From Melastoma dodecandrum (lineage: Eukaryota > Streptophyta > Magnoliopsida > Myrtales > Melastomataceae), in assembly GCA_029817715.1 (NCBI GenBank), contig JARUPY010000473.1:930001-994000 (forward strand): a stretch of 64,000 nucleotides of DNA. Reading direction: 5' to 3'. Positions 3,836 to 44,162 of this stretch are shown one piece after another. The position numbers and the translations under genes are program-made. Below the pieces are notes generated by a model that was not told the DNA's origin, did no database searches, and saw only the letters and a list, made by a program, of their open reading frames with translations. How positions within the stretch are numbered: the first letter of the stretch is position 1; each line of letters opens with the position of its first letter.

Positions 3836-4261
3836 GAGGATTGTACCTAATTACGCTTAGTTGAGAAAAAAATTTGCGAAAGAGTTTTTAAAATTACCTG
3901 AATATTGTCTCGACTTTTCAAACCGAGACTTTGAATTTAGTTAAAATGGACAAAGTCGCTGTAGCGACTTTAGGTAACTTGGGCTTTTTTTGTGTTTGGA
4001 GCAAAATCGCTGTTTGAAACAACGTTTCTTAAGGGAAGTCGTTGTTTCAAATATGTCTTTCGGTAAAAAATGGCGACTTTGACCCAAACATCAAAAAAGT
4101 CTAAAAAAATTCCCAAGTCATCGAAAGTCGATGGGACGGCGAGTTTGTCAATTTCAATCTAAATCGTTGTTTCAAATCGCGACTTAGAATTTAGTTAAAA
4201 TTGACAAAGTCGTTGTCCCAAACAACGACTTGAGATTTTTTGGTGTTTCGGGCAAAATCGC
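3836..4261. repeat. Left half of an inverted-repeat (foldback-like) element split by element A
   Basis: Bases about 3838-3935 match the reverse complement of about 17330-17427. The shared blocks are gtac(c/t)taattacg, ttagttgagaaaaaa, and ttaccyGaatayTGTC. The rest of this arm is built of repeated 'aaagtcg(c/t)tgttt(c/g)aaa' motifs in both orientations. Two tight hairpins are visible: AAAGTCGCT/AGCGACTTT at 3952-3971, and AAGTCGTTGT/ACAACGACTT at 4207-4231. The outer border is uncertain. No transposase is seen. Confidence 0.6.
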
Positions 4262-4798
4262 TGTAGATCCCCCAAATTGTTTACTCTCCGAACAAAACCA
4301 GTCGACTGCGAACCTGTTCGAAAATTACTTCGAAAGTTTGGGGATCAATCCAAATTGATGGACCCATTCCGACTTTTACAAAAAGGGGACGTCACTACTA
4401 AAGAAAAACCAGACTAGAAAAATTTTCTTGGCGAGGCCCAGCGAATCCAGCCCAAGCCCGTCCGCCAAGACAGCCCGCTTGCCCAACCCAGCGCCAAGGT
4501 CCCCGAGAATTGTGAAGACCAGTTGATTCCCCCCAATCCAGGCCTGGATGAACCCGGCCCAGCCAAGCTGAAGACAGTGGCGCCCCCCCGTCGCAATCTG
4601 CAACAACAGCAGCTGTAGCATCAGACACCTGCAGCAGCTTCGTTCACCTCGGGATGCCCAGAGCTACCCTGCTCTGACTTCCCCTGCTAGCTCGCAGAGC
4701 TTCGCCGCCCCCACCCCCCAATTCATGACCTGAGGCGATGAGGTTCCACCTTGATGAGTGTGCCCATCCATTCGCAGCCAGAGGGAGAAGGATTTCTC

Positions 4799-4806
4799 TA
4801 TAAAAG
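4799..4806 (+). promoter_or_regulatory. Probable TATA box of element A 5' LTR
   Basis: TATAAAAG in a clean context (ttctctataaaagaaaag), 537 bases into the LTR. It is repeated exactly at 14183-14190 in the other LTR. This would place the U3/R border about 30 bases downstream, near 4830. Confidence 0.6.
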
Positions 4807-6686
4807 AAAAGAATGGAGGGGGGGTCGACAGACCGGACCGGGAGAGCTTCTTCATCGCCTCCCCCGTTTCTCCCCAAAACAACACAACAGCTCTACCTTC
4901 CCCCCTCCCTCAATCGATTCTGCCCAAGGTGTATACCTGGAGATGGAGACCCTTTTGCGCCACGGTAGCAACAAAACCGCCCCGCCACCAGCTCCTGGTC
5001 CCAACCTCCTCCTCACTCGGCAACAAGCAGCTCGGTGATGGCAACTAGTTGCTGGTGACAACCAGAAGTGTTCTCCCATCTCATCTCCAAGGTAGCCTCC
5101 CTAACAATGCTATGATCGACACCAGTGGAACAACGGTCCCCCCGCTCCATGCCACATCCATGGATGGCCACACCAGCGGCGGCGTCGTCCTCTTAACAGC
5201 AGACACCAAGCCTCGACAACCACGATGGCCAAACCGGGCTACTCTCAGCGCCAAACCCGGCGGAATCGACCAGGAGCCCAAGGCGCTCCCGACTCCAACA
5301 ACTAGGACACCCAAGGCGCATCCCCACCTCCCCGCAGTCTCCGAGCCGCTTCCGGTCGTGACGACCAGCACCCACCTCGTCTCCCCGTCCTCCTCCTCCT
5401 CCCTCGCGTCCAGATCCGGACTCGGCCGAGGCGACCCGAGCTTGGCCGACCCGCTCCTCCCCACGGCTGGCCCGATCGGAGATGATGGCAGACCCGACAG
5501 CCCCAAAGCGGCCACCTCCACAACCCGCTTCGGATCCGGCCGCAACGGACCCCCGGGGGGTCGGCCTCCCTAGATCCGCGACAAAAAGGACACCCACCAA
5601 GGCGCGGCCGCCCTTCTCCACGATCCTCGCCCCAAAACACCCGCCATGGCGCCATCCTTCCCGAGGCGCCATCTTCCCCTCCTGGCCCATGTGACAGCCC
5701 CTTTCCCTCCTTGACATCGGCCTTCCCCTTTCCGGAAAGAGACCCCGATCTCTACGGGCAAAAGCAGCCCCACCAAGTCCGCACTGGAGGACGACGTCGT
5801 TGGGCACCACAAACCCAGAGGAAGGCGGAGGTCAGGGGAAGCGTGTGTAAGGCGAGGACATTTCGATGGTGAAATCCCAAAGCGTGTCTTCGGCTTTCAG
5901 AAGGAAAGTCAAGGCTCCAATCCCATCACAGAAAGGTAAGAGCTTTTCTTTTCCTTTTTTTATTAAAGCCGATTCCCACTGTTAGGATTAGAAATGTTAA
6001 CATTTTAACTTATTGTTATTACGTTTATTGCTCCCACTCATTGTCTTGTCATTAGAATTATTTCATTACGTTTCGATTTTCCTTTGTTTCGTTATTACTT
6101 GATTGTGTGTGTTCAAGTTACACGTGAACCCGAGGCTTCGAAGTATTCTGGATGGAATCTTTGAAATAATTTTTATAAAGCCATTAATTGTTCTTGAAAT
6201 TTAATTCTTTTCGACGAATGCCTTTGACCCCCCACTTTTTCTACTCTTTGTCGTTTGTTTGCATGAAAACATAACGAGAAATATGAATTTTCCCGAAACA
6301 TCGAAAGCCGACGCAAGCATTTGAAATCGAGGAGTCAACAACCAAGGAGACATCTTCTGACATATCAGAGGATCGACGTCAACGGGATATACAAATGTTC
6401 CATTTAATTCAACCATTTCAAACGGTAAGTCATGCCTTACTATTTTAGTACAGTTAAATTTACGTCAATTTAACCGTTACTAAAGGCTTTGCACATCGGC
6501 ATCTTCCTGTTTTACATGTAAAACACCGAGGAATTATTACCAAGGAATGCATCCTCCGACGACGCGGACGATCGACATCAACGGGATACAAAATGCCCCA
6601 TTTAACTCAACCATTTTAAACGGCTTTGCACATCTTTTCCATTTCCTTGTTTTACATGTAAAACAACGAGGAATTCATTACCAAGG

Positions 6687-6854
6687 GACATCCATTTTCG
6701 ACATCACCGAAGATCAATATCAACTGGCCACACAACGCCCCAGACATCCATCTTCCGACATCACGGAAGATCCACATCAACGGGCTATACAACCCCCCAG
6801 ACATCCATTTTCAACATCATGAAGGATCAACATCAACGGGCCACACAACGCCCG
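6687..6854 (+). repeat. Three 56-bp tandem repeats in LTR A
   Basis: Units start at 6687, 6743 and 6799 and share 'gacatcc', 'acatca', and 'atcaac(t/g)gg', each followed by 'acaacgcccc' or a near variant. Degenerate upstream copies lie near 6350 and 6547. Each unit contains a short hairpin whose stem differs between copies. The same array is in the 3' LTR from 16070. Confidence 0.75.
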
Positions 6855-7867
6855 GTGAGTAATCATTCTTACTCACCAGTTAATTTCAAAATCATCCCAT
6901 GTATTTTGGAATTTTCTGATATATCTATCGTTTTCTATGTGGTGTTTTAATTTTGCATGAAAAATCAACCGAGCTTCATGGAATTTCGACAAAGCGATAT
7001 TTCGAAGATAGAAAGCTTGAAGGCGTGTGTAACAAACCGCGCGGGTTGGACCTACCGCGGCCTAAAAAACCGCTGGTTCAGAGAGAAGCGACATCAACCG
7101 TCATCTCAGGTACATGAGGGAAGTGCGGGCTTCCCGTCTTTTCTTTATTTCCACATGTAACGGGTCGTGAGCCCAAGTGCATAGGCTCATGATCACCACC
7201 CTTTCCCGCTCTCTTTGATCTCGATAAATTGGTTGTGGTTGTTCGCATGCTTTAGGCCCGTAGGTTTATCGTCGCATGCTATTTGCTAAATACACATGAG
7301 TTCGAGTCCAAAAGGCTCGAATCGGGTCCAACGCCCGTAAAACAGTGACATGAGTCCGGAGTCATGCCCGGATCGGGTCCAACGCCCGTTAATCTAAAGC
7401 CAAACTCTTTTGGAGCAAACGCCACCTCTTCGCATGTTTAGAGTGTAAAGACTAGTAAGTAGAAATCCCCGAACAAGCTGTTTTTCCGACTTAACAGTTT
7501 TAAATTAAAAAGTCGGTGGCGACTCCGTAATAGTTTACCTAGGTTAAACAATGACACATTTTACAAACGGAGCCATTTTGGATGGGTGACGGCAACACGA
7601 GCCGCTTCCTGGATCCTCCCGGAATTTCCCAAGCGAGGTCTTAACGCAGCCTTTCGCCCGTCGCCTTCAAGGACTGGAGACGGTCGGCGAAACGCCCCGC
7701 AGATCCGCTCGGGAACCAAGGGAGGATTCAACCCGATGCCCTTCCGCAGCGTCCGACGCTCGAGTCGCGACGCCGACCGGATTGGGCCTCGGGGAGCGGG
7801 CCCGGATCCTCGTGTCGCCGGAGCCGCAGCGCGCGTGCTAGGCCGGAGGGCGCGCGTACATCCCGGA

Positions 7868-7884
7868 TGGCGACTCCGCTGGGG
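7868..7884 (+). other. Primer binding site of element A (tRNA-Arg)
   Basis: TGGCGACTCCGCTGGGG is complementary to the 3' end of plant tRNA-Arg(ACG), as I know that tRNA's sequence, including CCA. It lies seven bases after the LTR end (tcccgga spacer). Use of tRNA-Arg is a known trait of Ogre/Tat elements. Element B has the identical site and spacer. Confidence 0.85.
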
Positions 7885-9700
7885 AGTTGGGCATGTGGAT
7901 TTTTATCGAAATATCTTTACACTCGTCCACATGCGGAGGGGAGTAACTGTTTGGGCATGTACTTGCTTGGCTCGGTGCCCTTCGTTTGCGCTCATGATTG
8001 TCTTTGTTTACCGCTTTCCTAGGCATGTCTAGGTGTGCCCGAACCCGGGGCTAGGATCTTTAGGGGGGTCACCGAGAGGCTCAGCCTGCTGCTCTTTGCG
8101 GTATGGTTTTTGGCCGGGGCCCCGCCTCTCTCAATCCGAGGGAGGTTTAGAAGCCTTCATCCGTGAATCTAGAATTGCTTGCTCACTACAGGTACCAGAT
8201 GCAGCACGTGCATTTGTCTGTTACTGAGTGACTGTTACATGTGCAGGGACAGGTGTCAGATACGCTTTGTCTGTTATAACTGTAAAACTAACACTACTCG
8301 TTTTGCAGTTTGATGGAGTTTATTACAATGGGCTTCAACAACCTTCATTTCTCCTATCCCTACCTTTTTTACTGCTTACAGTATTCATACATTCGCATGA
8401 CCACATGAGTGTCTGTTTAATTGCAGTAGTTACGTTATCATGTCATTCACAGTAACTGCTCCATTGCAACACCACATATGCATACTTTTCTGCATATACG
8501 AATGCAATTAAGTATCACCATAAATTTATCATGCATCGATTACACTGTTGCATGATAATAATCTAATCTTTCTCTCTACTTTCCTTTCGAGGTCTAATTC
8601 TCCAACATGGCTCCTCGAACGGGACTTAGGGAAGGCATGACATTACAAATCTACAAGCACAAAAATGCCAAGGATTCATCGACAGCTACCAAGGCCCAAG
8701 CCGAACCTCTAACAACATGAAGACCAAAGTTTCCATTACGGCTACCAAGGTCCAAAGCCGGTATCCAACAACATGAGCCCAAAGTGTTATCAACGGCTAC
8801 CAAAGTACAAAGGCAAGCACGAACACCAAAGATCACACAACGACTACCAAGACATGCAAAGACCGGACACGTCGGAACATCGCGCCTCTACTTATCCGAC
8901 AACCACTCCAAGGAAACAAAAGCGATCACACTACATCATCAGTCAGCACAATCCAGCACAAGGACTCGTCGACCCTCTTCATGGTGCCAACAATACATTG
9001 TAGCACTAGGGGCAAACCCCGCTCTACACAATGACCTCGCGAGATCGGGACACCTGCAAGCAATCGACCTCACCGTCTCTCAGATAACAGGAACTCGACG
9101 AACACCGGATCCAAAGCATCCCCACGACCAAAACATGGACATGGACCAGTTTTTCCAAGAGAGGGAAATACATAGCGCAACTGGCATTAGAAGCTCCTAT
9201 TCGTTCTACTCGCCTTTCAACAGTTCAAAACATACATGATGAACTTACCGATATTTAAACTGCTAACACCGAGGCATCCATTTTACCTCGAAGGTACAAG
9301 ACGACTCATCTGGGGCTAATACAACAGCATACCAACACCAAAGAATATGATGTCTACCAAACGACGACGCATACTTCGACTGGGGCAATTCCCGTTGAAT
9401 TCCCTACGGCACCCAAGTGGTCATCCCGACAATAGTCAACCATCAACTCTCACCAAAGAAAAGAGGAAAAGGTCAGTCACCCCCTCACTCATTGACGAGA
9501 AACAAGCATCTCGGCCAACCACAGGAACGGTCAATTCCCTAGCCCGCCCACCACAGTACCGGTCATCGCCCACGCGTACCACAAAGTGCTACAACAATGC
9601 ATATCCCATGCAATCGCACCTAGCCAAAGAGCAACTGTCGTAACAAAGAGGAACTGCCACAAACAATCAACGCAGAAGATCTTCGACGTTATAATCACAT
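7885..9700 (+). other. Element A leader and unique internal region, non-coding
   Basis: Bases 7885 to about 8560 match the leader of element B (29029-29690), including the 'accagatgc(a/c)gcacgtgcatttgtctgttact' neighbourhood. From about 8600 the sequence is unique to A and replaces the coding block of B. It has a short degenerate tandem repeat at about 8684-8820 (ctaccaaggyccaa ... caacatga). Open frames here have no recognisable protein content. Confidence 0.65.
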
Positions 9701-12290
9701 GAAAGGGAGTATTCGTTCTTTAATCAGTACTTCCTTATTTAAAAAAAATGAGTTACATGAGCTCACTCATTTTAGCCCTTGTCGCATGTGGACGAAGGCG
9801 TGGGTGGCAGGGTGGTAAAATTTCGAGCCAAATCCTTGAAACAATTTCGAGCCAAAGCTTCGAAATATTCTTCATTGTCAACACGTACAGGAACTTCCTA
9901 AGCAGACAACAACAGGCGCGGCGGTAGGGTGGTAAAGCTCCGAGCAATATCGGGGCAAAAATTCAAGCAATCTTGGATAAATCTTCGTTTCCAAGACAAC
10001 GAATCACGTAAAAGGGAGTATTCGTTCTTTAATCAATACTTCCTTATTTGCAAAAATGAGTTACATGAGCTCACTCATTTTAGCCCTTGTCGCATGTTGA
10101 CGAAGGCGTGGGTGGCAGGGTGGTAAAGTTTCGAGCCAAAGCCTTGAAACAGTTTTGAGCCAAAGCTTCAAAATATCCTTCGTTGTCAACAAAACGATGA
10201 TCTACATGAAAGGGAGTATTCGTTCTTCAACTAATACTTTCTCTGCAGAACAGGTTACATGAGCTTACTTGTTTTTCCCTTCGGCTTGTCTCATAGGTAC
10301 ATGAACATCCTAAGCAGACGACGAAGGCGAGGGTGGTAGGGTGGAAACGTTTCGAGCCAAAGTTTCGAAACAGCCTTCGTTGGTAAAACAATGACGACGA
10401 CAACACGAGAACAATCCTGTGACAAATTTCCGAGTGATCATGGACATATCTCCGAGCGACTCTGGGGCATATCTCCAAGCTATCATGGGACGAGACTGAG
10501 CAAGCTTGGATAACTCTCAGTTGACAAAATGGCAAATAACATGAAAGGGAGTATATGTTCCTTAACAAATGCTTTCTTTACAAAACAAGTTACACGAACT
10601 TACTTGTTTTGCCCTTCGGCTTATCTCATAGGCACATAAACAACCTAGGCAGACGGGAAGATACAACAACATCCTGTCATGCCAATAAAGACAACTTTCG
10701 AAGCAAAGCTTCGAAACAACACTCATAATCAACAAGACAACAAGACAACAAATTACATGAAAATACATGAGCGTCTTAAGCAGACAACAAAGACAAACGA
10801 TGAAGTTTCAAACCAACGCTTCAGAACAATCTTCGTCAGCAAACTTCTTTATATCCCCAGGGAGTCAACTGGGGCAAAGAACACTAACAATACACATGAA
10901 AAGGGAGAATCATACAAATACTACTCTCTTCATCAAGCTAAGTGAAATTACATGAGCTCATTTCACTTACGTCCTTTGTCTCGTGGACAGGTACAAGAGC
11001 TCCTCACACGTATGGTGCAAAACTCCTATGACAAAGGCGTGGGTGGCAGGGTGGCAAAGCTTCAAGCCAAGGTCTTGTAGCAATTTCGTCAAACCTTCGA
11101 TTCCATCGGACGAAGATGCATTGATGAAATCACACAAAAAGGAAAGTAGCAAAACTCTACTTCGCCTTTCATATAAATGAAGTTACACGAGCAAACTTCA
11201 TTCTTACTCTAACAGAAACAAGTTACCAGAACTTCCTTATTTCTAGCCATCTGTTTGATAGGTACATGAGCATCCTTACACAACAGACATCAAGCTTGTA
11301 GCAATTTCGTCAAATCTTCGATTCCATCGGACGAAGATGCATTGATGAAATCACACAAAAAGGGAAGTATCAAAACTCTACTTCACCTTTCATATAAATG
11401 AAGTTACACGAGCAAACTTCATTCTTACTCTAACCGAAACAAGTTACCAGAACTTCCTTGTTTCTAGCCATCTGTTTGATAGGTACATGAGCATCCTTAC
11501 ACAACAGACATCAAGCTTGTAGCAATTTCGTCGAACCTTCGATTCCACCGGACGAAGATGCAACGATGAAATCATGCAAAAGGGAAGTATCAAAACTCTA
11601 CTTCGCCTTTCATACAAATGAAATGACATGAACAAATTTCATTCTTACTTTGAAAGAAAACAAGTTACATGAGCTCACTTGTTGTCTGTCCTTTGCCTAA
11701 CATAGGTGCATGAACATCCTATATTATGGACAAAGGCGCGGGCGGTTGGGTGGAAAATTTCGAACCAAACCTTCGGAATCGCCTTTGTTGTCACCAATGA
11801 TGAGCATACCAAGAGGGAGTATCATCTACACTGCTTTCTAACAAAATTTCTTATATTTCCCCAGATGGAGTCGTATCTCCGTTTCCCAGCTGGAGTCCTG
11901 CCTTCGTTCAAGCTGGAGTTGATTACATGCATCGCATTCCTCAACAAGAATCAGACATACAAGCATATTCTTCCAGAACTATCATTGAGACAGACATATC
12001 TATCTCATCTCCCCAGCGGATACTTCATTTCATTGTTATCTCCCCCAAGCGAGAGTCGAAGTACATGAGCTAACTTCGTCTCCGTCCGTTGTCAACTGTG
12101 TAGGCACATGGACTCCGCACAGTACGGTACAAACTCCTAGGCAACGGCGTGGGTGGTCGGGTGGAAGCCGTTTGATTCTAATATCAAAGAACATGACTGG
12201 GGCATGAAAGTGCAAACACTTTCCCCTCGAAGTTTGCACAAGAGCACTTCGGAGGTTTGAGTATCTAAACCTAGTCATTTCTTAAACATT
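9700..12290 (+). repeat. Array of hairpin-bearing repeat modules in element A 3' internal region
   Basis: Successive modules of roughly 200-350 bases begin with 'catgaaagggagtat' (9700, 10204, 10539 and others). Each then has a hairpin with loop TACATGAGCTC or a variant, then a CCTTTG...CAAAGG-type outer stem around a second hairpin with loop TACATGAGCAT, then a G-rich GGGTGG..GGGTGG string and a 'ttcgagccaaagcttcgaaa' foldback. The same modules occur after pol in element B. They do not code for protein. Confidence 0.8.
11076..11640 (+). repeat. Tandem repeat of ~221-bp period in element A
   Basis: 'tgtagcaatttcgtc' recurs at about 11076, 11298 and 11519, followed each time by the same block (ccatcggacgaagatgca, gaagttacacgagcaaact). 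The first two copies are complete and the third diverges. Element B holds a looser two-copy version (37391 and about 37610). Tat/Ogre 3' untranslated regions are known to carry such arrays. Confidence 0.8.
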
Positions 12291-13646
12291 CATGCGCTCA
12301 TTCGCATATAATTTAAAATGATTTTTTGACAATAAAAATGCTTCTGAGCGAGAGTGGAGAAGGCAAGCCTATCCCTAAACACTTACCCGGAAAGATGAGC
12401 GCAAACACTGTAAGGATTCATACCTAAGCATTCAGGCGGATAATGAATCCTTTGACAAAAGATGCTCTAAACCGGGATGAAATCGAGCATTTCTTCCCTA
12501 TCCAAAACACAAAACATTGACCATTGCTAACCCCTTCCGAGCCAAAGTCGAAGTTTCTATATACGTTACTCCCACTGAGTCTAAGGACCGCCTCACATTG
12601 AGGTTAAAGGAGATCTTGTAGCTAGAAACCGGAAGCAACGGATCACAGAGGCGACACTTCCTCAAGGTTCAAGCGAAGAGGTACCATCAACAGACGTGCT
12701 TGCCAGTTGACTTGTACCCAGGGACAAAAACATCCAACAATTCTGCAAGACGTACAAATCGTCAAAGAGTCCAAAGCAGCTCTAAAAAGATGAACGGGGA
12801 TGAAAATGGGGCAAATCCTCATATACCATCAAGAAATATAAATCCTCAAAGAGTTCAAGGCGTCTCCAACAAAGCAAAGAAAAAGAAATAAAATGGGACA
12901 AATCCCTGCATGAAAGCGAAGAAAGAGCAAAATCAGCGCAAAGACCAAGGTCGTCAAAAGCAAAGCGCAAAAAGAAAATAAAAGAGCAAATTAAAGCACC
13001 AGGGCCGACATGAAAGGCCGCAAAAGCAAAGGTGCTATCTCCCGGACAAAACAGGGACAAGGCACTCCCCAAAACAGATTTCAAAAGATGGAGAATTCGC
13101 TTGGACGGTGGATCGACCATCAATCCCCAACGGCGCATCTCAACGGGCCTGCTGTCTGGTAGATGGAGAATTCGCTTGGACGGTGGAACCTCTATGGTAC
13201 AACAGCTTCCGATGAGGTCCTTAGACTCGTTCCTTCAAAATGACAAATTCAGATTCTCTATCCAAGGCTTTACGCCAAAACTACATTTCAACCTAGATAA
13301 AGACTCTTTCGACTGGTACATGAGCATCCAAGTCAAGGGTATTCTAAAATCCAACTGAGATGACTTTTAGAAATAAGAGTAAGATATGAGAGAAGTCAGA
13401 AGCCATTCTTTATTCTCGCTCAGAAGAAATCTTAATAAAACATGACATGCATGAGAGCATAATCCTACATGTTTGATTATTTTGTTCGATCCCCCAAGCT
13501 TCACGGAATACATTTGTTACTGACATTTTCTTGATTAGATCCCAAGGTATAGATCTATCAAGAATACCCTAAGATTACAATTTGGGGTTATCTATGACGT
13601 CCTTGCGAGACAATCTTCTCAGATTCTCCCACAAGGAGGGGCAAAC
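12291..13646 (+). other. Element A 3' untranslated region and polypurine tract
   Basis: Homologous to 38345-39582 of element B (for example 'ctgagcgagagtggagaagg', 'gatgctctaaaccgggatga'). It ends in the polypurine tract AAGGAGGGGCAAAC (13633-13646) directly before the 3' LTR. That tract is identical in both elements. No coding region is seen. Confidence 0.75.
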
Positions 13647-16600
13647 TGTAGATCCCCCAAATTGTTTACTATCCGAACAAAACCAGTCGACTGCGAACCT
13701 GTTCGAAAATTACTTCGAAAGTTTGGGGATCAATCCAAATTGATGGACCCATTCCGACTTTTACAAAAAGGGGACGTCACTACTAAAGAAAAACCAGACT
13801 AGAAAAATTTTCTTGGCGAGGCCCAGCGAATCCAGCCCAAGCCCGTCCGCCAAGACAGCCCGCTTGCCCAACCCAGCGCCAAGGTCCCCGAGAATTGTGA
13901 AGACCAGTTGATTCCCCCCAATCCAGGCCTGGATGAACCCGGCCCAGCCAAGCTGAAGACAGTGGCGCCCCCCGTCGCAATCTGCAACAACAGCAGCTGT
14001 AGCATCAGACACCTGCAGCAGCTTCGTTCACCTCGGGATGCCCAGAGCTACCCTGCTCTGACTTCCCCTGCTAGCTCGCAGAGCTTCGCCGCCCCCACCC
14101 CCCAATTCATGACCTGAGGCGATGAGGTTCCACCTTGATGAGTGTGCCCATCCATTCGCAGCCAGAGGGAGAAGGATTTCTCTATAAAAGAAAAGAATGG
14201 AGGGGGGGTTGACAGACCGGACCTGGAGAGCTTCTTCATCGCCTCCCCTGTTTCTCCCCAAAACAACACAACAGCTCTACCTTCCCCCCTCCCTCAATCG
14301 ATTCTGCCCAAGGTGTATACCTGGAGATGGAGACCCTTTTGCGCCACGGTAGCAACAAAACCGCCCCGCCACCAGCTCCTGGTCCCAACCTCCTCCTCAC
14401 TCGGCAACAAGCAGCTCGGTGATGGCAACTAGTTGCTGGTGACAACCAGAAGTGTTCTCCCATCTCATCTCCAAGGTAGCCTCCCTAACAATGCTATGAT
14501 CGACACCAGTGGAATAACGGTCCCCCCGCTCCATGCCACATCCATGGATGGCCACACCAGCGGCGGCGTCGTCCTCTTAACAGCAGACACCAAGCCTCGA
14601 CAACCACGATGGCCAAACCGGGCTACTCTCAGCGCCATACCCGGCGGAATCGACCAGGAGCCCAAGGCGCTCCCGACTCCAACAACTAGGACACCCAAGG
14701 CGCATCCCCACCTCCCCGCAGTCTCCGAGCCGCTTCCGGTCGTGACGACCAGCACCCACCTCGTCTCCCCGTCCTCCTCCTCCTCCCTCGCGTCCAGATC
14801 CGGACTCGGCCGAGGCGACCCGAGCTTGGCCGACCCGCTCCTCCCCACGGCTGGCCCGATCGGAGATGATGGCAGACCCGACAGCCCCAAAGCGGCCACC
14901 TCCACAACCCGCTTCGGATCCGGCCGCAACGGACCCCCGGGGGGTCGGCCTCCCTAGATCCGCGACAAAAAGGACACCCACCAAGGCGCGGCCGCCCTTC
15001 TCCACGATCCTCGCCCCAAAACACCCGCCATGGCGCCATCCTTCCCGAGGCGCCATCTTCCCCTCCTGGCCCATGTGACAGCCCCTTTCCCTCCTTGACA
15101 TCGGCCTTCCCCTTTCCGGAAAGAGACCCCGATCTCTACGGGCAAAAGCAGCCCCACCAAGTCCGCACTGGAGGACGACGTCGTTGGGCACCACAAACCC
15201 AGAGGAAGGCGGAGGTCAGGGGAAGCGTGTGTAAGGCGAGGACATTTCGATGGTGAAATCCCAAAGCGTGTCTTCGGCTTTCAGAAGGAAAGTCAAGGCT
15301 CCAATCCCATCACAGAAAGGTAAGAGCTTTTCTTTTCCTTTTTTTATTAAAGCCGATTCCCACTGTTAGGATTAGAAATGTTAACATTTTAACTTATTGT
15401 TATTACGTTTATTGCTCCCACTCATTGTCTTGTCATTAGAATTATTTCATTACGTTTCGATTTTCCTTTGTTTCGTTATTACTTGATTGTGTGTGTTCAA
15501 GTTACACGTGAACCCGAGGCTTCGAAGTATTCTGGATGGAGTCTTTGAAATAATTTTTATAAAGCCATTAATTGTTCTTGAAATTTAATTCTTTTCGACG
15601 AATGCCTTTGACCCCCCACTTTTTCTACTCTTTGTCGTTTGTTTGCATGAAAACATAACGAGAAATATGAATTTTCCCGAAACATCGAAAGCCGACGCAA
15701 GCATTTGAAATCGAGGAGTCAACAACCAAGGAGACATCTTCTGACATATCAGAGGATCGACGTCAACGGGATATACAAATGTTCCATTTAATTCAACCAT
15801 TTCAAACGGTAAGTCATGCCTTACTATTTTAGTACAGTTAAATTTACGTCAATTTAACCGTTACTAAGGGCCTTGCACATCGGCATCTTCCTGTTTTACA
15901 TGTAAAACACCGAGGAATTATTACCAAGGAATGCATCCTCCAACGACGCGGACGATCGACATCAACGGGATACAAAATGCCCCATTTAACTCAACCATTT
16001 TAAACGGCTTTGCACATCTCTTCCATTTCCTTGTTTTACATGTAAAACAACGAGGAATTCATTACCAAGGGACATCCATTTTCGACATCACCGAAGATCA
16101 ATATCAACGGGCCACACAACGCCCCAGACATCCATCTTCCGACATCACGGAAGATCCACATCAACGGGCTATACAACCCCCCAGACATCCATTTTCAACA
16201 TCATGAAGGATCAACATCAACGGGCCACACAACGCCCGGTGAGTAATCATTCTTACTCACCAGTTAATTTCAAAATCATCCCATGTATTTTGGAATTTTA
16301 TATCTATCGTTTTCTATGTGGTGTTTTAATTTTGCATGAAAAATCAACCGAGCTTCATGGAATTTCGACAAAGCGATATTTCGAAGATAGAAAGCTTGAA
16401 GGCGTGTGTAACAAACCGCGCGGGTTGGACCTACCGCGGCCTAAAAAACCGCTGGTTCAGAGAGAAGCGACATCAACCGTCATCTCAGGTACATGAGGGA
16501 AGTGCGGGCTTCCCGTCTTTTCTTTATTTCCACATGTAACGGGTCGTGAGCCCAAGTGCATAGGCTCATGATCACCACCCTTTCCCGCTCTCTTTGATCT

Positions 16601-17239
16601 CGATAAATTGGTTGTGGTTGTTCGCATGCTTTAGGCCCGTAGGTTTATCGTCGCATGCTATTTGCTAAATACACATGAGTTCGAGTCCAAAAGGCTCGAA
16701 TCGGGTCCAACGCCCGTAAAACAGTGACATGAGTCCGGAGTCATGCCCGGATCGGGTCCAACGCCCGTTAATCTAAAGCCAAACTCTTTTGGAGCAAACG
16801 CCACCTCTTCGCATGTTTAGAGTGTAAAGACTAGTAAGTAGAAATCCCCGAACAAGCTGTTTTTCCGACTTAACAGTTTTAAATTAAAAAGTCGGTGGCG
16901 ACTCCGTAATAGTTTACCTAGTTTAAACAATGACACATTTTACAAACGGAGCCATTTTGGATGGGTGACGGCAACACGAGCCGCTTCCTGGATCCTCCCG
17001 GATTTTCCCAAGCGAGGTCTTAACGCAGCCTTTCGCCCGTCGCCTTCAAGGACTGGAGACGGTCGGCAAAACGCCCCGCAGATCCGCTCGGGAACCAAGG
17101 GAGGATTCAACCCGATGCCCTTCCGCAGCGTCCGACGCTCGAGTCGCGACGCCGACCGGATTGGGCCTCGGGGAGCGGGCCCGGATCCTCGTGTCGCCGG
17201 AGCCGCAGCGCGCGTGCTAGGCCGGAGGGCGCGCGTACA
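13647..17239 (+). repeat. 3' LTR of element A (3593 bp)
   Basis: Near-identical to 4262-7860. Visible differences include a short deletion near 16300 (bases 'ctgata' absent) and about sixteen substitutions. The TATA box copy is at 14183-14190. It ends GTACA followed by GTCGC. Confidence 0.92.
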
Positions 17240-25042: not shown

Positions 25043-28000
25043 TGTAATACCTCAAATTAATACACAGGCCACAAACCATAACAAACCCAACATTTAGGCC
25101 AAAGCCCCAATCCATACAACTATAGGATCCATTTTTTTTTTTTATAAAACAAAAAATAATAAAATAATAAGAAACATAATGGCCGATCCATTCTCCAAAA
25201 TGGCCGAGCCCAATGAGCCAACACTCTGGTGGCTGCTTTCATTTCTGGTTGGCCATCATACATAAACCGTCAAGTGATACATGGATCGGTGTTAATATCG
25301 ACGATTTCGAGCAGAGAGGGGGGGGGGGGCATTTGGCTGGGATACACTTGTTCCATGTACTGGCCAATCGCAACCTTAACATCAATGGGATATGGAGGCT
25401 TGCATGCCGTGAACACGGTGGAAAAGGCATTCAATATGTTCTACATGTTATTCAATATTGGTCTCACAGCATATTTGATTGGGAACACGACCAATTTAGT
25501 TGTCCATAGTGCTGTCCAGACTTTTGGTGATTCCATAAATGGGATATTGCAATTCGTAAGCAAAAAATAGATTACCAGAAGACTCAAAAGAACAGATGCC
25601 GTCCCACATGCGGCTTAGATCCAAACAAGCCCACGGTAAACTCCAACCAAAGAAAAGGGATTGGGCAAACCCAAGCCCCCAACTTCTCCTCAAAGAGCCC
25701 AAAGTAGCTCAGCCCGCAATAACAAGCCAAACACGAGTTAAGCCCGCAATCCTTCACAGCCCAAGCCCTTCTCCTCTGATTCCCCGACAGGATCTCCTGC
25801 GCCTTCACTCCCCCTCTGACAATCGCAGATTGAAACAACCTCCTGCGCTACGGAGGATCACCTGGCCGACGTCCTGAGATGATATTGTCCCCTAACGGTT
25901 TCCTTTCCCAACTAGAGGCAAACCAGAAGGTAACTAGATTGAAACAAGGTTTCGGAGAGGAGGAGAAACTAGATGAGGGGGAGAAACCAGAAGAAAAGAT
26001 GAAACGAGAAGAATAAAAGGAGGACTCACCGTTCAGTCAGGGGGGGGGGGTCGATCAAACAGTAGAGGACTCACCAATTCTCTCTAAAAAAAACTTCCTT
26101 CAATTGAAAGGGGGAGGAGACTAACGAAGGCATCGTTCCTCTCCTTCCTCCTTCACTGTCTTCTACAGTTGCAAGGACCTCCATCCTCACTGTGGACGCC
26201 ACCATCTCTTCCCCATCCAGCCGTCTCCCTGTCAAGGTAAGAGGAGTCAGCCGCGGGAACCCCCCCCCCCTCGATGGCCAAACCAAGCAAGTAGACGACA
26301 ACAACAGCAAGCACGAGGCTATACCGTAGGTCGCGGTGCCAACTCTTCTGAACACGAGGGCATCAACACCAGGCTTGGACGGCGCCTCCATTTCCATCAG
26401 CGACGACTTGCGATGTGGGATATTCCTTTTGCAGTCGCGACGGAGCCTTCCCTTTCTGCAGACAACCCAGTCGACTCCACCTCCCTGCTGTCAATGGATG
26501 ACCAACCCCAAGCTTCTCGCAAGCATCCATCTCCTTCTACTTTAACTATTTCATTCATGTGCAGGCACAGCTCCCACGTCGTCTCCTGGTCGTGTTTCGA
26601 CCTCAGCATCTGTCGTCGCCGACCCCCTGATGTGCAGACACAGCAGCACGGCATCCATATTCTCCTCCGACACCTCCAAGCACGATAACCAGCTCTTGCT
26701 TTCCCACGTTCTCCCAGATCGATGGCAACAACCTCAACTCGAGCACCAAACTCCAGTCCCAAGGCGACTCCTCTTTTCAGCTTCCCGACGCCCACAGAAC
26801 CGCGACGATCAGCCCCAGCAATGACCAGTTCGGCGAGCCCACAGTCTCCCCTGCCTTCAAATCTTCTTCTAGTTGGACCATCACAACCCCCTAACCCATG
26901 CTCTGGCGCTCCTAGACCAAGCCTTCCCCGGCATCCTTCAGGAATGACAACCCATTCCAGAAGCTCTCGTTTAGCAGTGCAAATACTCCAAGCATGCTAG
27001 TGTGGGTGCAAGGACGGACTTGGCGACGACAGATTCCCGCCTCTCCCCGGCGCCTTCCTAGTCAAGCGGCAGCTCCCCATGGTCTTCAAGACAGCTCCCC
27101 GCCGTTAGCGGCCGGCTCGAGAAATGGCGAACCTCCCCAACAGCAGATCTGCCCGACCCGAGCGACTCGCCCTCAACCCAGTCACGAAGGCGTCCAACAC
27201 AGCCTCCCTTGCTCTCCGACGACGACGACTTCCCCCCCCCCTCTCCAAGCTACAGCGAACTCTCCTCCCGGCGACCCCAACTTCGGCGGTGACCCAACAG
27301 ACGGGCCCTTCTCCGGCGTACCCAAGCTCGACGACGGCAAACCCACACCCCAAACGTCCCCAGATCACAGCCGCCCTCCCAATGACGATGGCCTTGTCCT
27401 CCGCCGACGACCCCCCAGATCTCGACGACCAGACCCACTCCCCGGCGTCTTCCTTGTCTTTCCGGCGTCGGCTTGATCCCTCCTCGACACTCCAGATCCG
27501 AGCCGTCGTCGCAGCCATCTCCGGTGCTCCAGATCTCAACGACCCGTATCCTCCTCGGCGATGCCTCAACAATCCGGGAATCTTCCTCTCCAGCGATTTT
27601 TGATGGCTTCGGACAACACGCCTTCTGTACCTGTGCCCTCTCCCCAAAGATAGATGGGTCTCGGTTGGACTTCGAATCTCTCAGAGAGGTAATGAATCCA
27701 TTCTTTCAATAGATTTAAGTTTAATAGATATATGACTTGACTTATACGAATTGCCTTCTTTTTAATATGTTTATCTTTGACTTCCGAATCTTTAGTAATT
27801 ATCAATTGACTTATTTAGAATTTTTAGCTGGATGTCATATGAATGTGTTTACCGTTAGGATTTTAATCTTTTAAAACTTACGTTCTCGTCTATTTATGAG
27901 GATTAATATTTTATTCCGATATGCATTACTAACATCCGTTTCCCTATTGTTTTCCATGTAAAACACGGAGAAATTTCCCGAATGTTTTCGACAACGCACA

Positions 28001-29004
28001 TCAAGGAGACATCTTCGGCCAAAAAACGGTAAGACATGCCTTACTCTTTTAAATTTTGTCAAGCTCCACTTACATTTAACAATACTAACCACATTCACAT
28101 TTCCTTTGCATGTACACTGAGCACTTAATCTCGGAATACCGACACCAAAATTTCGAAGATTAACTTGAAGGCGCGTGTATCAAACCGCGTGGTTCTACCC
28201 CGGTTTAAAACACCGTGGGCTTGAAGACAAAGCGGCCCCAACCTTCAATTTAAGGTACAAAAGGGGACTCCCCGAATTTCATTTCCTAAGCCCATATGTA
28301 GCGGGTTGCGGGCCCAAGTGCATAGGCCCGCAACCACCGCCCTTCCCCGCTCTCTTTCATCTCGTTTATTGTTTGTGATTGCACGCATGACTTAGGCTTT
28401 AGGTTTATGTCGTGTGTTGATTTTTAATCAAACAAACCTAAATTCGGGTCCAAAGCCCGTTAAAACGTCGATACGAGTCCGGCCCACTCCCGGATCGGGT
28501 CCAACACCCGTCAATCAAAAGTAACTTTTTGGACAAATCGCCACCCTTTTCGCATGTGGTAAAGCACTAAGGCTAGTAAATAGGAATCCACGAACCCAGA
28601 CTCTGATTTTTCCGACTTAAAATCACAATTTTTAAACTAAGTCGGTGGCGACTCCGAACAAAGTTTTCCAAAGCTAAAACTAAACCCCACTAGCCTTTTT
28701 CGGAGCCATTTGGGGTGAGGTGACGGCTGCTCGAGCCGCTCCTCGGGCCCTCCCCGAAATTCGCGAGCGAGGCCTTAACGCAGCCTTTCGCTCGCCGCCT
28801 CCAGGGAACTGGAGACGGCTGGCGAAACGCCCCGCAGACCCGTTCGCGAATCAAGGGAAGGCCCAACCCGGAGCCCTTTTCCGCAGCGTCTGGCGTTCGA
28901 GCCGGAACGCCGACCGGACTGGGCCTCGGGGGAGCGGACCCGGATCCTCGGGTTAGCCAGAACCGCCGCCGCGCGCGCTGCTAGGCCGGAAGGGCGTGCG
29001 CACA
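25043..29004 (+). repeat. 5' LTR of element B (3962 bp)
   Basis: TG...CA-bounded, paired with 39583-43559. The last ~850 bases are homologous to the end of the element A LTR, including the hairpin 28306-28333 and the PBS-like 11-mer 28646-28656. Long open frames on both strands in the GC-rich middle (26.1-27.6 kb) are not genes. Confidence 0.93.
25213..25625 (+). pseudogene. Captured Shaker-type K+ channel fragment in LTR B (5' copy)
   Basis: Conceptual reading, shifting frame at a run of twelve G, gives [22 protein letters not shown], then [49 protein letters not shown] and [13 protein letters not shown]. After another shift it reads LPEDSKEQMPSHMRLRSK. This follows plant KAT/AKT channels from the end of S5 through the pore loop and S6 into the C-linker. 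The selectivity filter reads GYGG instead of GYGD. Two frameshifts and the short length show it is a non-functional transduplicated piece. It is carried by both LTRs (second copy 39753-40163). Confidence 0.85.
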
Positions 29005-29011
29005 TCCCGGA

Positions 29012-29028
29012 TGGCGACTCCGCTGGGG
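29012..29028 (+). other. Primer binding site of element B (tRNA-Arg)
   Basis: TGGCGACTCCGCTGGGG, identical to that of element A, with the same seven-base spacer (tcccgga) after the LTR. Confidence 0.85.
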
Positions 29029-29690
29029 AGTCCGCATGTGGATTCTTACCGAAAGCCTTTTTACCACATGCAGAGAGGAGTTACTTGTTTGCGCATGTAA
29101 TTGATTGGCTCGATGCCCTTTGTTTGATCTCCTGTTTGTGTTCGTTTATCCGCTTTACTAGGCATATATAGGTAAATCCCTATACCCGGGATTAGGATCT
29201 TTAGGGGGTCACCGAAATGCACGGCCTCGTTGCTTCCTGCGGCTTGTAGGCTATGGACCGGAACCCGCCTCCCTTAGTCCGAGGGAGGTCTTAGAAACCT
29301 CCATCCGAGTCTAGAAATTGCTTGCCCACTACAGGTACCAGACGCCGCACGTGCATTTGTCTGTTACTAAGTGCCTGTTACTCGTGCAGGGACAGGGCAG
29401 GTATGTTCTGTATGCAATAAACTGTGACACTAAATCTGTTCATTTTGCAGCGGTTTGGGTTGGTCACAGGGGGGGTTTCCAAATTCCTTTTCTCCCTTCC
29501 CTAACTCCTTTTACCGCTTTAATGCATCCATACACATTCATAATCGTATGAATGCATTCCAATTCACGATTATTCTTGTAATATCATACATTCCATTTTT
29601 ACTTGAACATGATTACATAAATCGTGTGTCGAATCATACCATACTAGGGTTAGGGATTGGAATGTTATCATCCTCGAATGATACCCTATT
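29029..29690 (+). other. Element B leader
   Basis: Untranslated leader homologous to 7885-8560 of element A. No ORF of note. The sequence 'ctattatgcag' before ORF1 could act as a splice acceptor, but that is speculative. Confidence 0.6.
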
Positions 29691-30887
29691 ATGCAGGAAG
29701 ACCTCATGGAGCCCATCTCGCTGCGACAAAAGAATATGCCTGACGCTCATAACCTCCACCGGTGGTTGCCATTGCTGAGGCCGTCCGAACGGGAGTTCGT
29801 GCAGTCCAAGCTCATAGGGCTCTTCCACCTCATGCACCTGGAGCTGGATTGGGCCCTCCTACAAAATCTGGTAGCACGGTGGGACCCAGACGCCTTCGTC
29901 TTTTGCTTCGAGGACTTGAAGCTGGCGCCGCTCTACGAGGAGTACATCAACCTCGCCGAGATGCCTCACCGCACAGGGATACTGCCCCTGCCTCGGATCG
30001 ACAAACCGAAGGAGTACATAGCGAAGCTTCTTCAGATATCATCGGCAAGTGTACCCGGGCTCTTCAACTCCCAAGGGGACCTCAGCATCAAAGACGTCGT
30101 CGATTTACAGCTCGTGCCATACAACCCGCGCATGGGAGAAGGCCAAGGATCAGCGCGAGCATTCATCCTCCTTTTCGTCGGGACGATCCTGTACCCACAG
30201 AACGAGAAGACGATCAACCGACGAGCTGTCTACATCACCAAGGCAATACTTGAAGACGCTCCTTTCCTGCCTAACCTGATCGGAGAGACCAACTTCAGCC
30301 TCACCAACATCGTGCGTGAAGCAAAGCGAGGAGTCCGCAACCACAGGATGACCTTCTGCCCATCCCTGCTGCAAGTATGGTTCTACACCCATCTCGGGAT
30401 CACGGGAGAAGCCTTCACTAGGGAGCACACACCGGGGTTGCTTGCCCGCATCGTGGAGCGTGCCCGCCTGCCTGCACGCTCTTTCGTTGGAGTGGACGCT
30501 CTGTTCCGGTCTCTGGAGCCTGCCGATTTCTACCAGAGAGCCCGCTGCTTCGACACGGATGATGCAATCACCTCCTCGACGGACGGATACTTCATTCCGA
30601 TCATGGGATTCGGAGGCACCTCCTACTACGCGCCGTTCCAGGTTCGACACCAGCTAGGATTAGCTCCGAAGACCAGGGCACCCCCGCAGCAGCTCTTCCG
30701 ACCACTCAGCCTCGACGACAAGGTGGTCAAGACAGCACTCCAGAGGGTGATCGCGCACATCTCCCGCACGTGGATGAATCTCACGGAGGAAATCTGCGAG
30801 CTTCCACCAGAGTCCGATGAGGAGGATCGCGCAGCCCAATCCCAGCGTTTCTGGAGGAAGCGTCATGCTCTGTGGGATCGCACCTGA
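29691..30887 (+). CDS. Element B ORF1, plant mobile-domain-like protein (398 aa)
   Basis: An uninterrupted ORF upstream of gag, the position of the extra ORF1 of Ogre elements. The text (LLQNLVARWDPDAFVFCFEDL, LAPLYEEYINLAEMPHR, LPRIDKPKEY) fits the aminotransferase-like plant mobile domain found in those ORFs and in MAIN/MAIL proteins. The C-terminus is acidic, then basic (ESDEEDRAAQ, RFWRKRH). Its function in the element is unknown. A second in-frame ATG (29706) is equally possible as start. Confidence is high that it is the Ogre ORF1 and moderate for the domain name. Confidence 0.78.
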   Translation: MQEDLMEPISLRQKNMPDAHNLHRWLPLLRPSEREFVQSKLIGLFHLMHLELDWALLQNLVARWDPDAFVFCFEDLKLAPLYEEYINLAEMPHRTGILPLPRIDKPKEYIAKLLQISSASVPGLFNSQGDLSIKDVVDLQLVPYNPRMGEGQGSARAFILLFVGTILYPQNEKTINRRAVYITKAILEDAPFLPNLIGETNFSLTNIVREAKRGVRNHRMTFCPSLLQVWFYTHLGITGEAFTREHTPGLLARIVERARLPARSFVGVDALFRSLEPADFYQRARCFDTDDAITSSTDGYFIPIMGFGGTSYYAPFQVRHQLGLAPKTRAPPQQLFRPLSLDDKVVKTALQRVIAHISRTWMNLTEEICELPPESDEEDRAAQSQRFWRKRHALWDRT

Positions 30888-31193
30888 CCGACGACGTCTC
30901 CATGCGACTACTGGGCCTGCGCGCCCGTTCTATCTTTCTTTTCAGTCGATTGTATTTACCTTTTTATGACGATGTCGAACTTATTGCCTTCTATCTAATT
31001 CGTTTCCCTTCTTTCGGGGTTAAATTCGAGTGACAACAATCCAATCCCTACATTAGACATCTCATGCATCACTACATGTCATGCATCCATAGTATCATTG
31101 CTTGATGCTAATAGAATTTTCCTTTCTTCACCAAGGTACTGAGCAATTGCTCCATACCGAAAGCGTCCCAGATATCGCACCATCCGGGCGGTG
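30888..31193 (+). other. Spacer between ORF1 and gag
   Basis: About 300 bases without an ORF, T-rich at first. The gag frame opens just before the ATG at 31194. Confidence 0.6.
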
Positions 31194-33421: not shown

Positions 33422-33735
33422 GTGAAACTTTCCATCTTTACTTTACTGCACTTAGATAGGTAGAGTCTAGAGTAGGTTGCCTTGCTACATTCTGGTCGCG
33501 GACTAGCAAGGTCGTCTTTATGTAACGCGACCCCTAGGCAATACCTAGGGCGTTTGTGGGATCGGGCCGCTGATGATCAGGGCGAATCCGAGGAAACGAC
33601 GAGGGACCCGCTGAGTCCTGATCCCACAAAATTTTCTTTTGGTCAAACACGCATGCCTTGTTATGAATTGTCGCATGAAACTATATTCCGAATATTTCGT
33701 TTGGATACATTACTTTAATTTCTTCTCCTTTTCAG
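33422..33735 (+). other. Intron between gag and pol of element B
   Basis: 314 bases starting GTGAAAC and ending in a pyrimidine tract plus TTTTCAG. Exon 1 ends with two bases of a codon (GG) and exon 2 supplies the third (G), so splicing gives a glycine codon and joins both frames exactly. It contains no coding sequence. An intron at this place is known from pea Ogre. Unspliced RNA would end translation at gag, giving a Gag-only product. Confidence 0.75.
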
Positions 33736-36700: not shown

Positions 36701-37138
36701 TCAACTGGGGCAACCCCCTTCGAGCTCGTCTATGGTGCTCAAGCGGTCATTCCAGCAGAGGTCAAATTGCCAACTCTCAGGATATCATCCCAAAGCAACA
36801 TGACAGAAGAAGAGAGGGCCAATCATCAGCTCGTCCACCTCGACTTCATTGATGAGAAACGACTTGCCGCAGCTCACCACATGCAATGCTACCAACAGCG
36901 CATGTCCCGAGCATTCAACAAAAAGGTCAAGCCAATCAGATACAGACCAGGCGACCTCGTCCTCAAGAGGATCCTACCGAATGTCAAGGATCCACGAGGG
37001 AAGTTCGCTCCAAACTACGAAGGGCCGTTCGTCATCAAGCACGCCTTCTCAGGAGGAGCAACCATCCTAACAAAGATGGACGGAGGAGACCTGCCACAAG
37101 CAATCAACGCAGATGCTCTCCGACGATATTACACCTAA
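33736..37138 (+). CDS. pol: Element B pol: RT, RNase H, archaeal-type RNase H, integrase
   Basis: Open from the splice acceptor (1133 residues); counting below is from the internal Met at 33806. Reverse transcriptase about 100-330 with YVDD at 244-247. Degenerate Ty3-type RNase H about 385-510 (KEHAIY, KKFTDCESRY, GRTIADHIAEYP). Second, archaeal-type RNase H about 535-660 with D540, E580, D602 and D652. Integrase with zinc ligands H761, H768, C799, C802 and catalytic D831, D892, E928 (MDVIG, VTDNGS, GAVEAANK). The C-terminal domain has GDLVLKR and GPFVI. No internal stops and all catalytic residues intact, so the enzyme part could be active. The protease domain is not found in either exon. 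Confidence 0.92.
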
Positions 37139-43559: not shown

Positions 43560-44162
43560 TATAGATTGAGTGTTGTTCCTAGTCACTTGGTTTTACCCGA
43601 GCGTCTTCTTTATAAATCGAGTGTTCGCGGAGAATTGCGCATCAGAGACGTTATTTTCAGTAAATTAAAAATTATGACCTTGTTTTATAATTTTTTTTTT
43701 CTAACAAACTTTAATTCATCCTAATTTAAATTTGAAATTTTTACCACGGATACTGAAATATGAAATTTGAAAAGAAAAATAAATAATTTAAATGATCAAG
43801 TAAGCTCAATTGGTGGTATACAGGCTTTTTGGTCTTTTTTTTTTTTGCATAGATGTTAGGGCTTACCACCGGCTACAGAATGATTAAGCGTGACATAATT
43901 TTATTTTATATTTTTAACTGAAAGAACTTATTTGTTTTGAGGCTCAAAACAAAACTCGGTCGTCCCCTTAGCATCTATCAATCTCTTTACTTTTCCAAAA
44001 TTCAACTCCCCATATGGCGAAAAGTCTAAGAGAGGAATCTCCATCGAGCTTCCCCATTGGTCAGTCAATGGGAAGGAAGCTGGATTCCACCTCAATCTTT
44101 ACTACCGCTCCCTCTCCTCCGTTGACGACGCGGTTCTTTCCTTCAGCGAGGAAGACAGGGCG
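43560..44162. other. Intergenic region upstream of the GABA transporter gene
   Basis: AT-rich flank of element B followed by the promoter and 5' UTR of the transporter. No clear TATA box could be placed. Confidence 0.45.

Follow-up and report, generated by a model that had tools for sequence, protein, structure and literature searches.

Tandem repeats that follow pol are a known trait of the Tat long terminal repeat (LTR) retrotransposons and also occur in copies without pol (PMC7004042, PMC11963269). In many plants Tat/Ogre elements are present in large copy numbers (PMC7004042). Where the tandem repeats behind pol come from and what they do is still unknown according to a survey of Retand published in 2025 (PMC11963269). 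Here we describe a stretch of 64,000 nucleotides from Melastoma dodecandrum (assembly GCA_029817715.1, contig JARUPY010000473.1, positions 930,001 to 994,000 of the forward strand), referred to as the window, which holds two LTR retrotransposons, A and B, both on the + strand and each with an array of small hairpins ahead of its 3' LTR. This is a real structured RNA array, which is repeated across the sampled family copies of this genome and matched no Rfam family, and we interpret it as a modular RNA element under selection. The two elements and their arrays are:

4250 to 17239, + strand: element A, an LTR retrotransposon with LTRs at 4250-7860 and 13639-17239, 99.3% alike (self-comparison and alignment)
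25043 to 43560, + strand: element B, with LTRs at 25043-29005 and 39583-43560, 98.4% alike (alignment)
9690 to 12280, + strand: hairpin array of A
37170 to 38310, + strand: hairpin array of B

The first hairpin class (H1) has 18 copies, 12 in A and 6 in B, and a second class adds 11 more. A model that had seen only the letters of the window (the sequence-only reading) had counted at least eight hairpins in A, a number that is thus exceeded, and each of the ten strings that it quoted is letter-perfect at its coordinates. The H1 hairpins are:

9745 to 9773, + strand: H1 of A, stem 9, loop TACATGAGCTC
10053 to 10081, + strand: H1 of A, stem 9
10247 to 10275, + strand: H1 of A, stem 9 with two G-U pairs
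10581 to 10611, + strand: H1 of A, stem 10, loop TACACGAACTT
10939 to 10969, + strand: H1 of A, stem 10; its B counterpart at 37252-37282 has one double change and two G-U changes
11176 to 11202, + strand: H1 of A, stem 8-9
11215 to 11243, + strand: H1 of A, variant loop TACCAGAACTT, one C-A mismatch
11397 to 11423, + strand: H1 of A, tandem copy of 11176-11202
11436 to 11464, + strand: H1 of A, variant loop, tandem copy of 11215-11243
11617 to 11643, + strand: H1 of A, stem 8
11659 to 11683, + strand: H1 of A, stem 7
12057 to 12078, + strand: H1 of A, stem CGAAGT/ACTTCG, 10-base loop
37252 to 37282, + strand: H1 of B
37488 to 37514, + strand: H1 of B, variant loop ACAGCAGCA
37526 to 37556, + strand: H1 of B, variant loop
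37711 to 37737, + strand: H1 of B, one G-U pair
37752 to 37776, + strand: H1 of B
38142 to 38163, + strand: H1 of B, stem CAAAGT/ACTTTG

The loop string ACATGAGC has 18 occurrences in the window where 1.6 would be expected, a count reached by none of 100 shuffles. Both arrays together hold 23 sites with at most one mismatch to it, and the mean number of Watson-Crick pairs out of 6 at the hairpin register is 4.31 for the 13 exact and 4.00 for the 10 one-mismatch sites, compared with 1.50 (4 exact) and 1.57 (23 one-mismatch) outside the arrays. Perfect hairpins (stem of at least 7, loop of 3 to 20; 200 shuffles) number 17 in the A array, where the shuffles have a mean of 2.71 and a maximum of 9, and 5 in the B array, where the mean is 1.07 and the maximum 5, so that at least one shuffle equals it; they are at background level in four controls, namely the two flanks of the A array, the region 3' of the B array and the gag-pol region of B. 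A covariance model built from 16 H1 copies exceeds 22 bits only at its 16 source copies, all on the sense strand, and the two H1 with a 10-base loop, which lie outside the training set, score 20.3 bits (E 0.034) and 16.9 bits (E 0.23). The search of Rfam that the sequence-only reading had proposed gave no match in the whole window at the gathering score and none in 9690-12300 at E up to 1; an Rfam family as a name for the hairpins was therefore rejected.

The stems had been said to differ in paired fashion, and this is borne out beyond chance. Among 12 distinct 7-bp stems, 79 of 84 cells pair with their own partner against a mean of 62.4 with the arms permuted, and none of 100,000 permutations reaches 79. 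In an alignment of the window's copies (A3), 92.1% of the cells are paired, compared with 76.9% in shuffled and 39.7-51.6% in slid alignments; six of nine pairs are changed on both sides, which 15 of 500 shuffles reach, and 21 cells are doubly changed against 7.9 in shuffles. The fifth pair from the loop appears as C-G, G-C, T-A and A-T, plus one C-A. Two single cases noted from the sequence were also right: the stem at 38142-38163 is a double change relative to the one at 12057-12078, and the hairpin at 37711-37737 does contain a G-U pair. Between A and B (stems of at least 6, loops of at most 20), the array shows five matched double changes and no unmatched one, compared with 3:2 and 7:7 in two control regions.

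A constant loop, which the same reading had assumed, is not found, as TACACGAACTT, TACCAGAACTT, ACAGCAGCA and others are also present. Across 409 loops from 60 genomic stretches (40 chosen because they match a hairpin exactly, the other 20 through the stretch 3' of the array), the firm positions are C3 and A4 (99%), A7 (98%), A2 and C9 (94%) and G6 (92%), figures which are biased upward because the loops were chosen as lying within two mismatches of ACATGAGC; the last two positions are free. About 300 bases upstream of the 3' LTR, and thus beyond the array, a short stem at 13311-13334 in A and at 39265-39292 in B carries an extra GGTACATGAGCATCC, which is found in the genomic stretch L039 as well.

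The array is not confined to A and B, from which the sequence-only reading had described it. In the plant's own genome (373 Mb, 607 contigs) the 17-base core AGTTACATGAGCTCACT is matched exactly 572 times and its reversed control never. A 300-base stretch 3' of the array gave 890 first-look candidates, of which 40 were scored and are 89-100% alike. The first 40 of the 60 genomic stretches contain 3 to 15 H1-type hairpins each by a loose criterion (five of six pairs formed, at most two loop mismatches), and three loci with pol 86-90% identical (L026, L039 and L063) carry H1 hairpins and G-rich blocks after pol. The mean number of H1 per locus is 3.6 in the 15 loci with at least 230 amino acids of the pol end and 7.9 in the 45 without; we do not rely on this difference, since a long array may displace pol from the fetched stretch and since 40 of the 60 loci were selected by exact hairpin match.

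Three orthologous modules (a, c and f) were aligned among these copies. Five rows in which another module had been aligned (L026, L038 and L039 in c, L034 and L035 in f) were excluded before counts. Module a (38 sequences, 36 distinct) is 97.5% paired, with 4 of 32 pairs changed on both sides and 16 double cells against 1.3 in shuffles, a result that one of 500 shuffles reaches; its pair 49-71 is C-G in 14, U-G in 14, U-A in 8 and broken in none of the 36 distinct rows. Module c (38 sequences, 31 distinct) is 91.3% paired, a figure that includes one mis-set pair of 23 (columns 46-77) scored as unpaired in every row and excluded from the G-U/A-C and tree counts below. It has 13 double cells against 5.2 in shuffles, beats the shuffles on some measures only, and shows fewer further pair types than nearly all of them. 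As related sequences may exceed shuffles even without structure, we take these values as indications.

Selection of the stems in the sense RNA would predict that one-sided changes which persist are G-U and not A-C, and that pairing survives more often in old changes than in recent ones, given that most copies presumably are dead insertions. Variants common to at least two rows comprise 21 G-U and 10 A-C (binomial p=0.07), single-row variants 14 and 21, and the contrast between them (p=0.029), a modest excess, points to RNA rather than to DNA or antisense RNA. Counted by distinct stems in 40 loci, the G-U:A-C ratio is 17:4 for shared variants (binomial p=0.007) and 27:21 for single ones (Fisher contrast p=0.06); the 17:4 and 21:10 counts are not independent, as the loci overlap. 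A tree was built on unpaired columns only, leaving out loci below 78% identity, below 85% cover or cut by the stretch end; 44 rows of f, 52 of a and 55 of c remained, window copies included, and the 40 common to all three form the tree. For changes that start from the paired state, the ratio of pairing kept to pairing lost is 37:19 inside the tree and 51:70 at its tips (p=0.0036), or 37:12 and 51:38 when only A-C is scored as broken (p=0.042). Double Watson-Crick changes number six on internal branches and one at tips, and the two kinds of transition at unpaired sites are equal inside the tree (59:59), without strand bias. Stems broken on one side, which the sequence-only reading would have taken as evidence against selection, do occur, yet they are commoner at tips than inside the tree. 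Taken together, these comparisons of sequences give moderate support to selection on the sense RNA.

Three parts of the array lie outside the account of the sequence-only reading: the second hairpin class, its outer stem and a G-rich block. The 11 second-class hairpins carry a related loop on a short stem of the AGG/CCT type, and several of them are surrounded by an outer stem, CCTTCG/CGAAGG, CCTTTG/CAAAGG or CCGTTG/CAACGG, which likewise varies in paired fashion. The G-rich block GGCGNGGGYGGYNGGGYGG stands after most modules, in one copy one base short. Located by pattern (four G runs with short spacers, two-layer), ten such blocks were found, all ten on the sense strand and inside the arrays; the pattern matches nowhere else in the window. 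These features, together with the hairpins that lead modules, are:

10278 to 10344, + strand: second class of A, outer stem CCTTCG/CGAAGG around TAGG-TACATGAACAT-CCTA (10294-10312), G-rich block 10326-10344
10973 to 11054, + strand: second class of A, outer stem CCTTTGTC/GACAAAGG, inner stem AGG/CCT, G-rich block 11036-11054
11690 to 11753, + strand: second class of A, outer stem CCTTTG/CAAAGG, inner hairpin 11702-11722, G-rich block 11735-11753
12086 to 12164, + strand: second class of A, outer stem CCGTTGTC/GGCAACGG, inner stem CTGTG/CACAG, G-rich block 12146-12164
37286 to 37367, + strand: second class of B, G-rich block 37349-37367
37783 to 37846, + strand: second class of B, inner hairpin 37791-37819, G-rich block 37828-37846
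38171 to 38250, + strand: second class of B, G-rich block 38232-38250
9797 to 9815, 9915 to 9932 and 10105 to 10123, + strand: additional G-rich blocks of A
9703 to 9736, 10012 to 10045 and 10211 to 10242, + strand: leading hairpins of the GGGAGTAT..ATACTTCC type

In folding calculations, 200-base windows of the A array (9650 to 11649) have sense-strand z scores between -5.0 and -0.7, which several antisense windows equal; the B array is weaker, and other parts of the elements (8450, 15650-16250) reach comparable values. The non-coding leader of A at 8450-8649, ahead of the array, has a strong sense fold (z -5.7). Plain minimum-energy folds form H1 in three of nine modules, and the G-rich block often pairs with the stem arms; when quadruplex energies are allowed, H1 is in the minimum-energy fold of seven of the nine. 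The quadruplex pattern is present in the ten blocks that were found by it, and its formation is a modelled outcome, in six of nine modules. A run in which the G-rich block was held 'unpaired' gave the same folds as the free run and was disregarded. Since the block otherwise tends to pair with the stem arms, the models suggest that a quadruplex in it would set the hairpins free.

The surroundings place B among the Tat/Ogre elements. Its coding regions are:

29682 to 30887, + strand: ORF1 (open reading frame 1) of B, PF24924 DUF7745, upstream of gag
31143 to 33425, + strand: gag of B
33719 to 37138, + strand: pol of B, with reverse transcriptase, RNase H, RVT_3 and integrase

The domain order of B's pol is RVT_1, RT_RNaseH, RVT_3, Integrase_H2C2 and rve, with the extra RNase H (RVT_3) of Tat/Ogre elements between RNase H and integrase. 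A separate ORF1 ahead of gag, as B has, is an Ogre feature, and the layout of ORF1, gag and a pol with second RNase H follows the Tat/Ogre plan. Tandem repeats between pol and the 3' LTR, also a mark of Tat/Ogre, are found as a 221-bp unit in 2.7 copies in A and in two copies, 79% alike, in B. The closest named relatives of B's pol are in Punica, Syzygium and Malania (58-60% identical). Near its end, B's gag has a C-x2-H-x5-H-x4-C run. Between 33425 and 33719 the gag and pol ORFs of B are in different frames and about 290 bases apart, which suggests, from the sequence, an intron or frameshift as in Ogre. In A, inspection of the ORFs revealed neither gag nor pol; its array lies directly 3' of a short remnant that by eye resembles the end of B's pol. 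The two elements have in common the LTR end with the leader (6999-8391, 74% identity) and the region from pol to the 3' LTR (84% over 11295-12836). Directly 3' of the array, 12341-12640 of A and 38398-38696 of B are 93-96% alike and gave no Rfam match, and the remainder up to the LTR is 58-78% alike. Elsewhere in the window, a pentatricopeptide-type gene at 57196-58056 has 40 codons tandemly duplicated (CLVHGLWQAGNPNMAWEFFQRINDVSLVPTVVTYNIMIKG twice).

Outside plants, exact hairpin patterns gave 0, 9 and 4 stretches in viral contigs; these 13 share only exact pieces of 15-18 bases with the arrays and longer weak ones of at most 36 bases (E at least 0.02), and we therefore take them as chance. 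A search of viral and prokaryote contigs for pol found no relative. One Tat pol (P0008), on an 8.3-kb contig recorded under Salmonella enterica, is most likely plant contamination of a public assembly.

What could such an array do? Its architecture, its repetition and the paired changes of its stems are observed, and so is the fact that a relative lacking gag and pol carries it. In our preferred, still tentative reading, the region from pol to the 3' LTR forms a structured RNA made of modules, the loop of which would be read by a protein, most likely Gag, in packaging or assembly. A module would consist of a leading GGGAGTAT hairpin, one or two H1, a longer stem with a related loop and a two-layer G-rich block. 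H1 would display a loop close to UACAYGARCNN on a stem of 6-10 bp, and the outer arms of the longer stem would be CCUUCG, CCUUUG or CCGUUG, each facing its complement. Quadruplex folding of the G-rich block may free the hairpins, the loop would be bound by a protein, probably the element's own Gag, and the array could act in the 3' portion of the genomic RNA as a multivalent packaging or assembly signal. The many copies of one loop, the interchangeable stems and the array kept by a non-coding relative are what would be expected of a multivalent protein-binding site. Among candidate proteins the element's own Gag comes first, since a non-autonomous relative has to attract it, as is stated for BARE2, which has conserved dimerization and packaging signals and must borrow Gag (PMC3735527). 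We infer that the array most likely serves to bind this Gag at many sites, with RNA export as the main rival. A bolder form of this reading, which we consider doubtful, sees in Tat/Ogre elements a multivalent 3' platform on which hairpins with one loop, gated by a quadruplex, would recruit Gag, and on which non-autonomous relatives would multiply the hairpins and outcompete the autonomous copies for their Gag. If true, it would give the 'hypervariable tandem repeats' of Tat a function.

Several results weigh against our preferred reading. G-U and A-C alone do not differ significantly on the tree (20:11 on internal branches, 40:37 at tips, p=0.29), and their ratios of 18:7 and 27:28 on an earlier tree of 33 rows dropped to these values with 40 rows, the larger set being the one reported. 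Kept changes against A-C without reversions give 26:11 and 41:37 (p=0.10), and internal:tip changes of paired (60:139) and unpaired columns (148:265) are not significantly different (p=0.17). Between A and B alone there is no G-U excess (8 G-U and 10 A-C; also 14:15 and 8:13), and this strand test was set aside as uninformative. Module f (34 sequences, 28 distinct) is 95.1% paired and shows no covariation above shuffles. Judged against shuffles, covariation, which the sequence-only reading had proposed as a test, is strong in the window copies and module a, partial (on some measures) in module c, and absent in f; its claim of a signature of selection on RNA structure is supported in so far as older changes keep pairing more often than recent ones, and falls short in the G-U/A-C counts on the tree and in module f. 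Single-strand folding is weak, with z scores of -3.3 to +0.8 in nine sense modules, and the antisense strand folds better in one of three modules (11652-11753, z -4.24). Three of the six quadruplexes predicted in nine modules are favoured by only 0.1-0.2 kcal/mol over the plain fold. The array bins that align are only 81-91% alike between A and B, below the 93-96% of 12341-12640. Binding by Gag is a guess by analogy, and retroviral packaging signals are usually near the 5' end; the array lies between pol and the 3' LTR.

The main alternative, which we regard as unlikely, gives the array a role in RNA export or stability; it would be the plant equivalent of constitutive transport elements, with a host factor and not Gag as its binding partner. 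Several of these elements, among them MPMV CTE, MusD MTE and SERV-K/MER11, are described as complex structures of multiple stem-loops (PMC11379458). The different frames of B's gag and pol and the gap between them would mean that spliced and unspliced RNA may both be needed, as in Ogre, for which both are reported (PMC12786077). Against export, A is without gag-pol and perhaps without an intron, and still has 12 H1 compared with 6 in B. We also know of no export motif shared with the array. As a candidate cis-element, the array would be useful whichever role holds, because nuclear export of plant LTR-element RNA has had no direct study according to a 2025 review (PMC12786077).

The hairpins could also be without function, if pausing and template switching of reverse transcriptase at palindromes created, perfected and tandemly duplicated them, one arm being copied from the other. 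The tandem 221-bp duplications, the often perfect stems and the shuffle-level covariation of module f would fit such an origin. We consider it quite unlikely, however, as pair 49-71 has long-lived G-U states with no C-A counterpart, loop positions are kept at 92-99% (a figure biased by the selection of loops), pairing is retained more on internal branches than at tips, and like modules occur in copies with pol only 86-90% alike. A constraint on DNA or antisense RNA, such as a cruciform, a DNA-binding site or a source of small RNA, is improbable: hairpins inherently form in both strands, in several windows of the array the antisense strand matches the sense strand in folding, module 11652-11753 folds well in antisense, but shared non-Watson-Crick variants favour G-U over A-C in the sense strand (21:10 and 17:4, though p=0.29 on the tree) and the G-rich blocks are in sense only (10 of 10). 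Coding constraint was rejected, as B's single long sense ORF across the array (37269-37793) has no Pfam match and PF04195 (TRP28), a mark of Retand, is absent from the antisense ORFs scanned, one of A and three of B; among antisense ORFs of at least 70 amino acids, the longest wholly inside B's region has 85. Conserved loop-loop pairing was rejected on both candidate sites, because GCTCATG in A's leader (7990) is absent from the first 255 bases of B's leader and the CTCATT loop at 12296 is CCCATT or otherwise in several genomic copies.

Compared with the retroviral packaging signal Psi, the array is alike in having several short stem-loops on the genomic RNA and in being kept by a Gag-borrowing relative (cf. 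BARE2, PMC3735527); it differs in its 3' position and in its many more copies, and Gag binding is putative here. Plant LTR elements also contain quadruplex-forming sequences, mainly inside the LTRs around predicted promoters (PMC3902901); the G-rich blocks of the array are alike in their short spacers and their occurrence in an LTR element, and differ in standing in the post-pol region after most modules. In simple retroviruses, constitutive transport elements lie just ahead of the 3' LTR, and our array, likewise of multi-stem-loop build, is found before the 3' LTR too; to our knowledge the two have no sequence in common. Barley LARD elements (Kalendar et al. 2004) reportedly have conserved predicted RNA structure in their non-coding inner domain and would thus resemble A as relatives without coding capacity and with structured inner RNA. 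The array also resembles the tandem repeats of the Tat elements Ogre and Retand, with which it agrees in lineage by domain order, in place, in its tandem copies and in carriers without pol. As the sequence-only reading supposed, none of the hairpins or paired changes was found described for Tat/Ogre in the searched, mostly open-access literature; the words hairpin, secondary structure and stem are absent from the main text of PMC11963269, as is hairpin from that of PMC7004042. In the consulted text of both papers the repeats are given as sequence, without loop motif or paired changes, and a loop-and-stem code in them would make the question of their function a binding assay.

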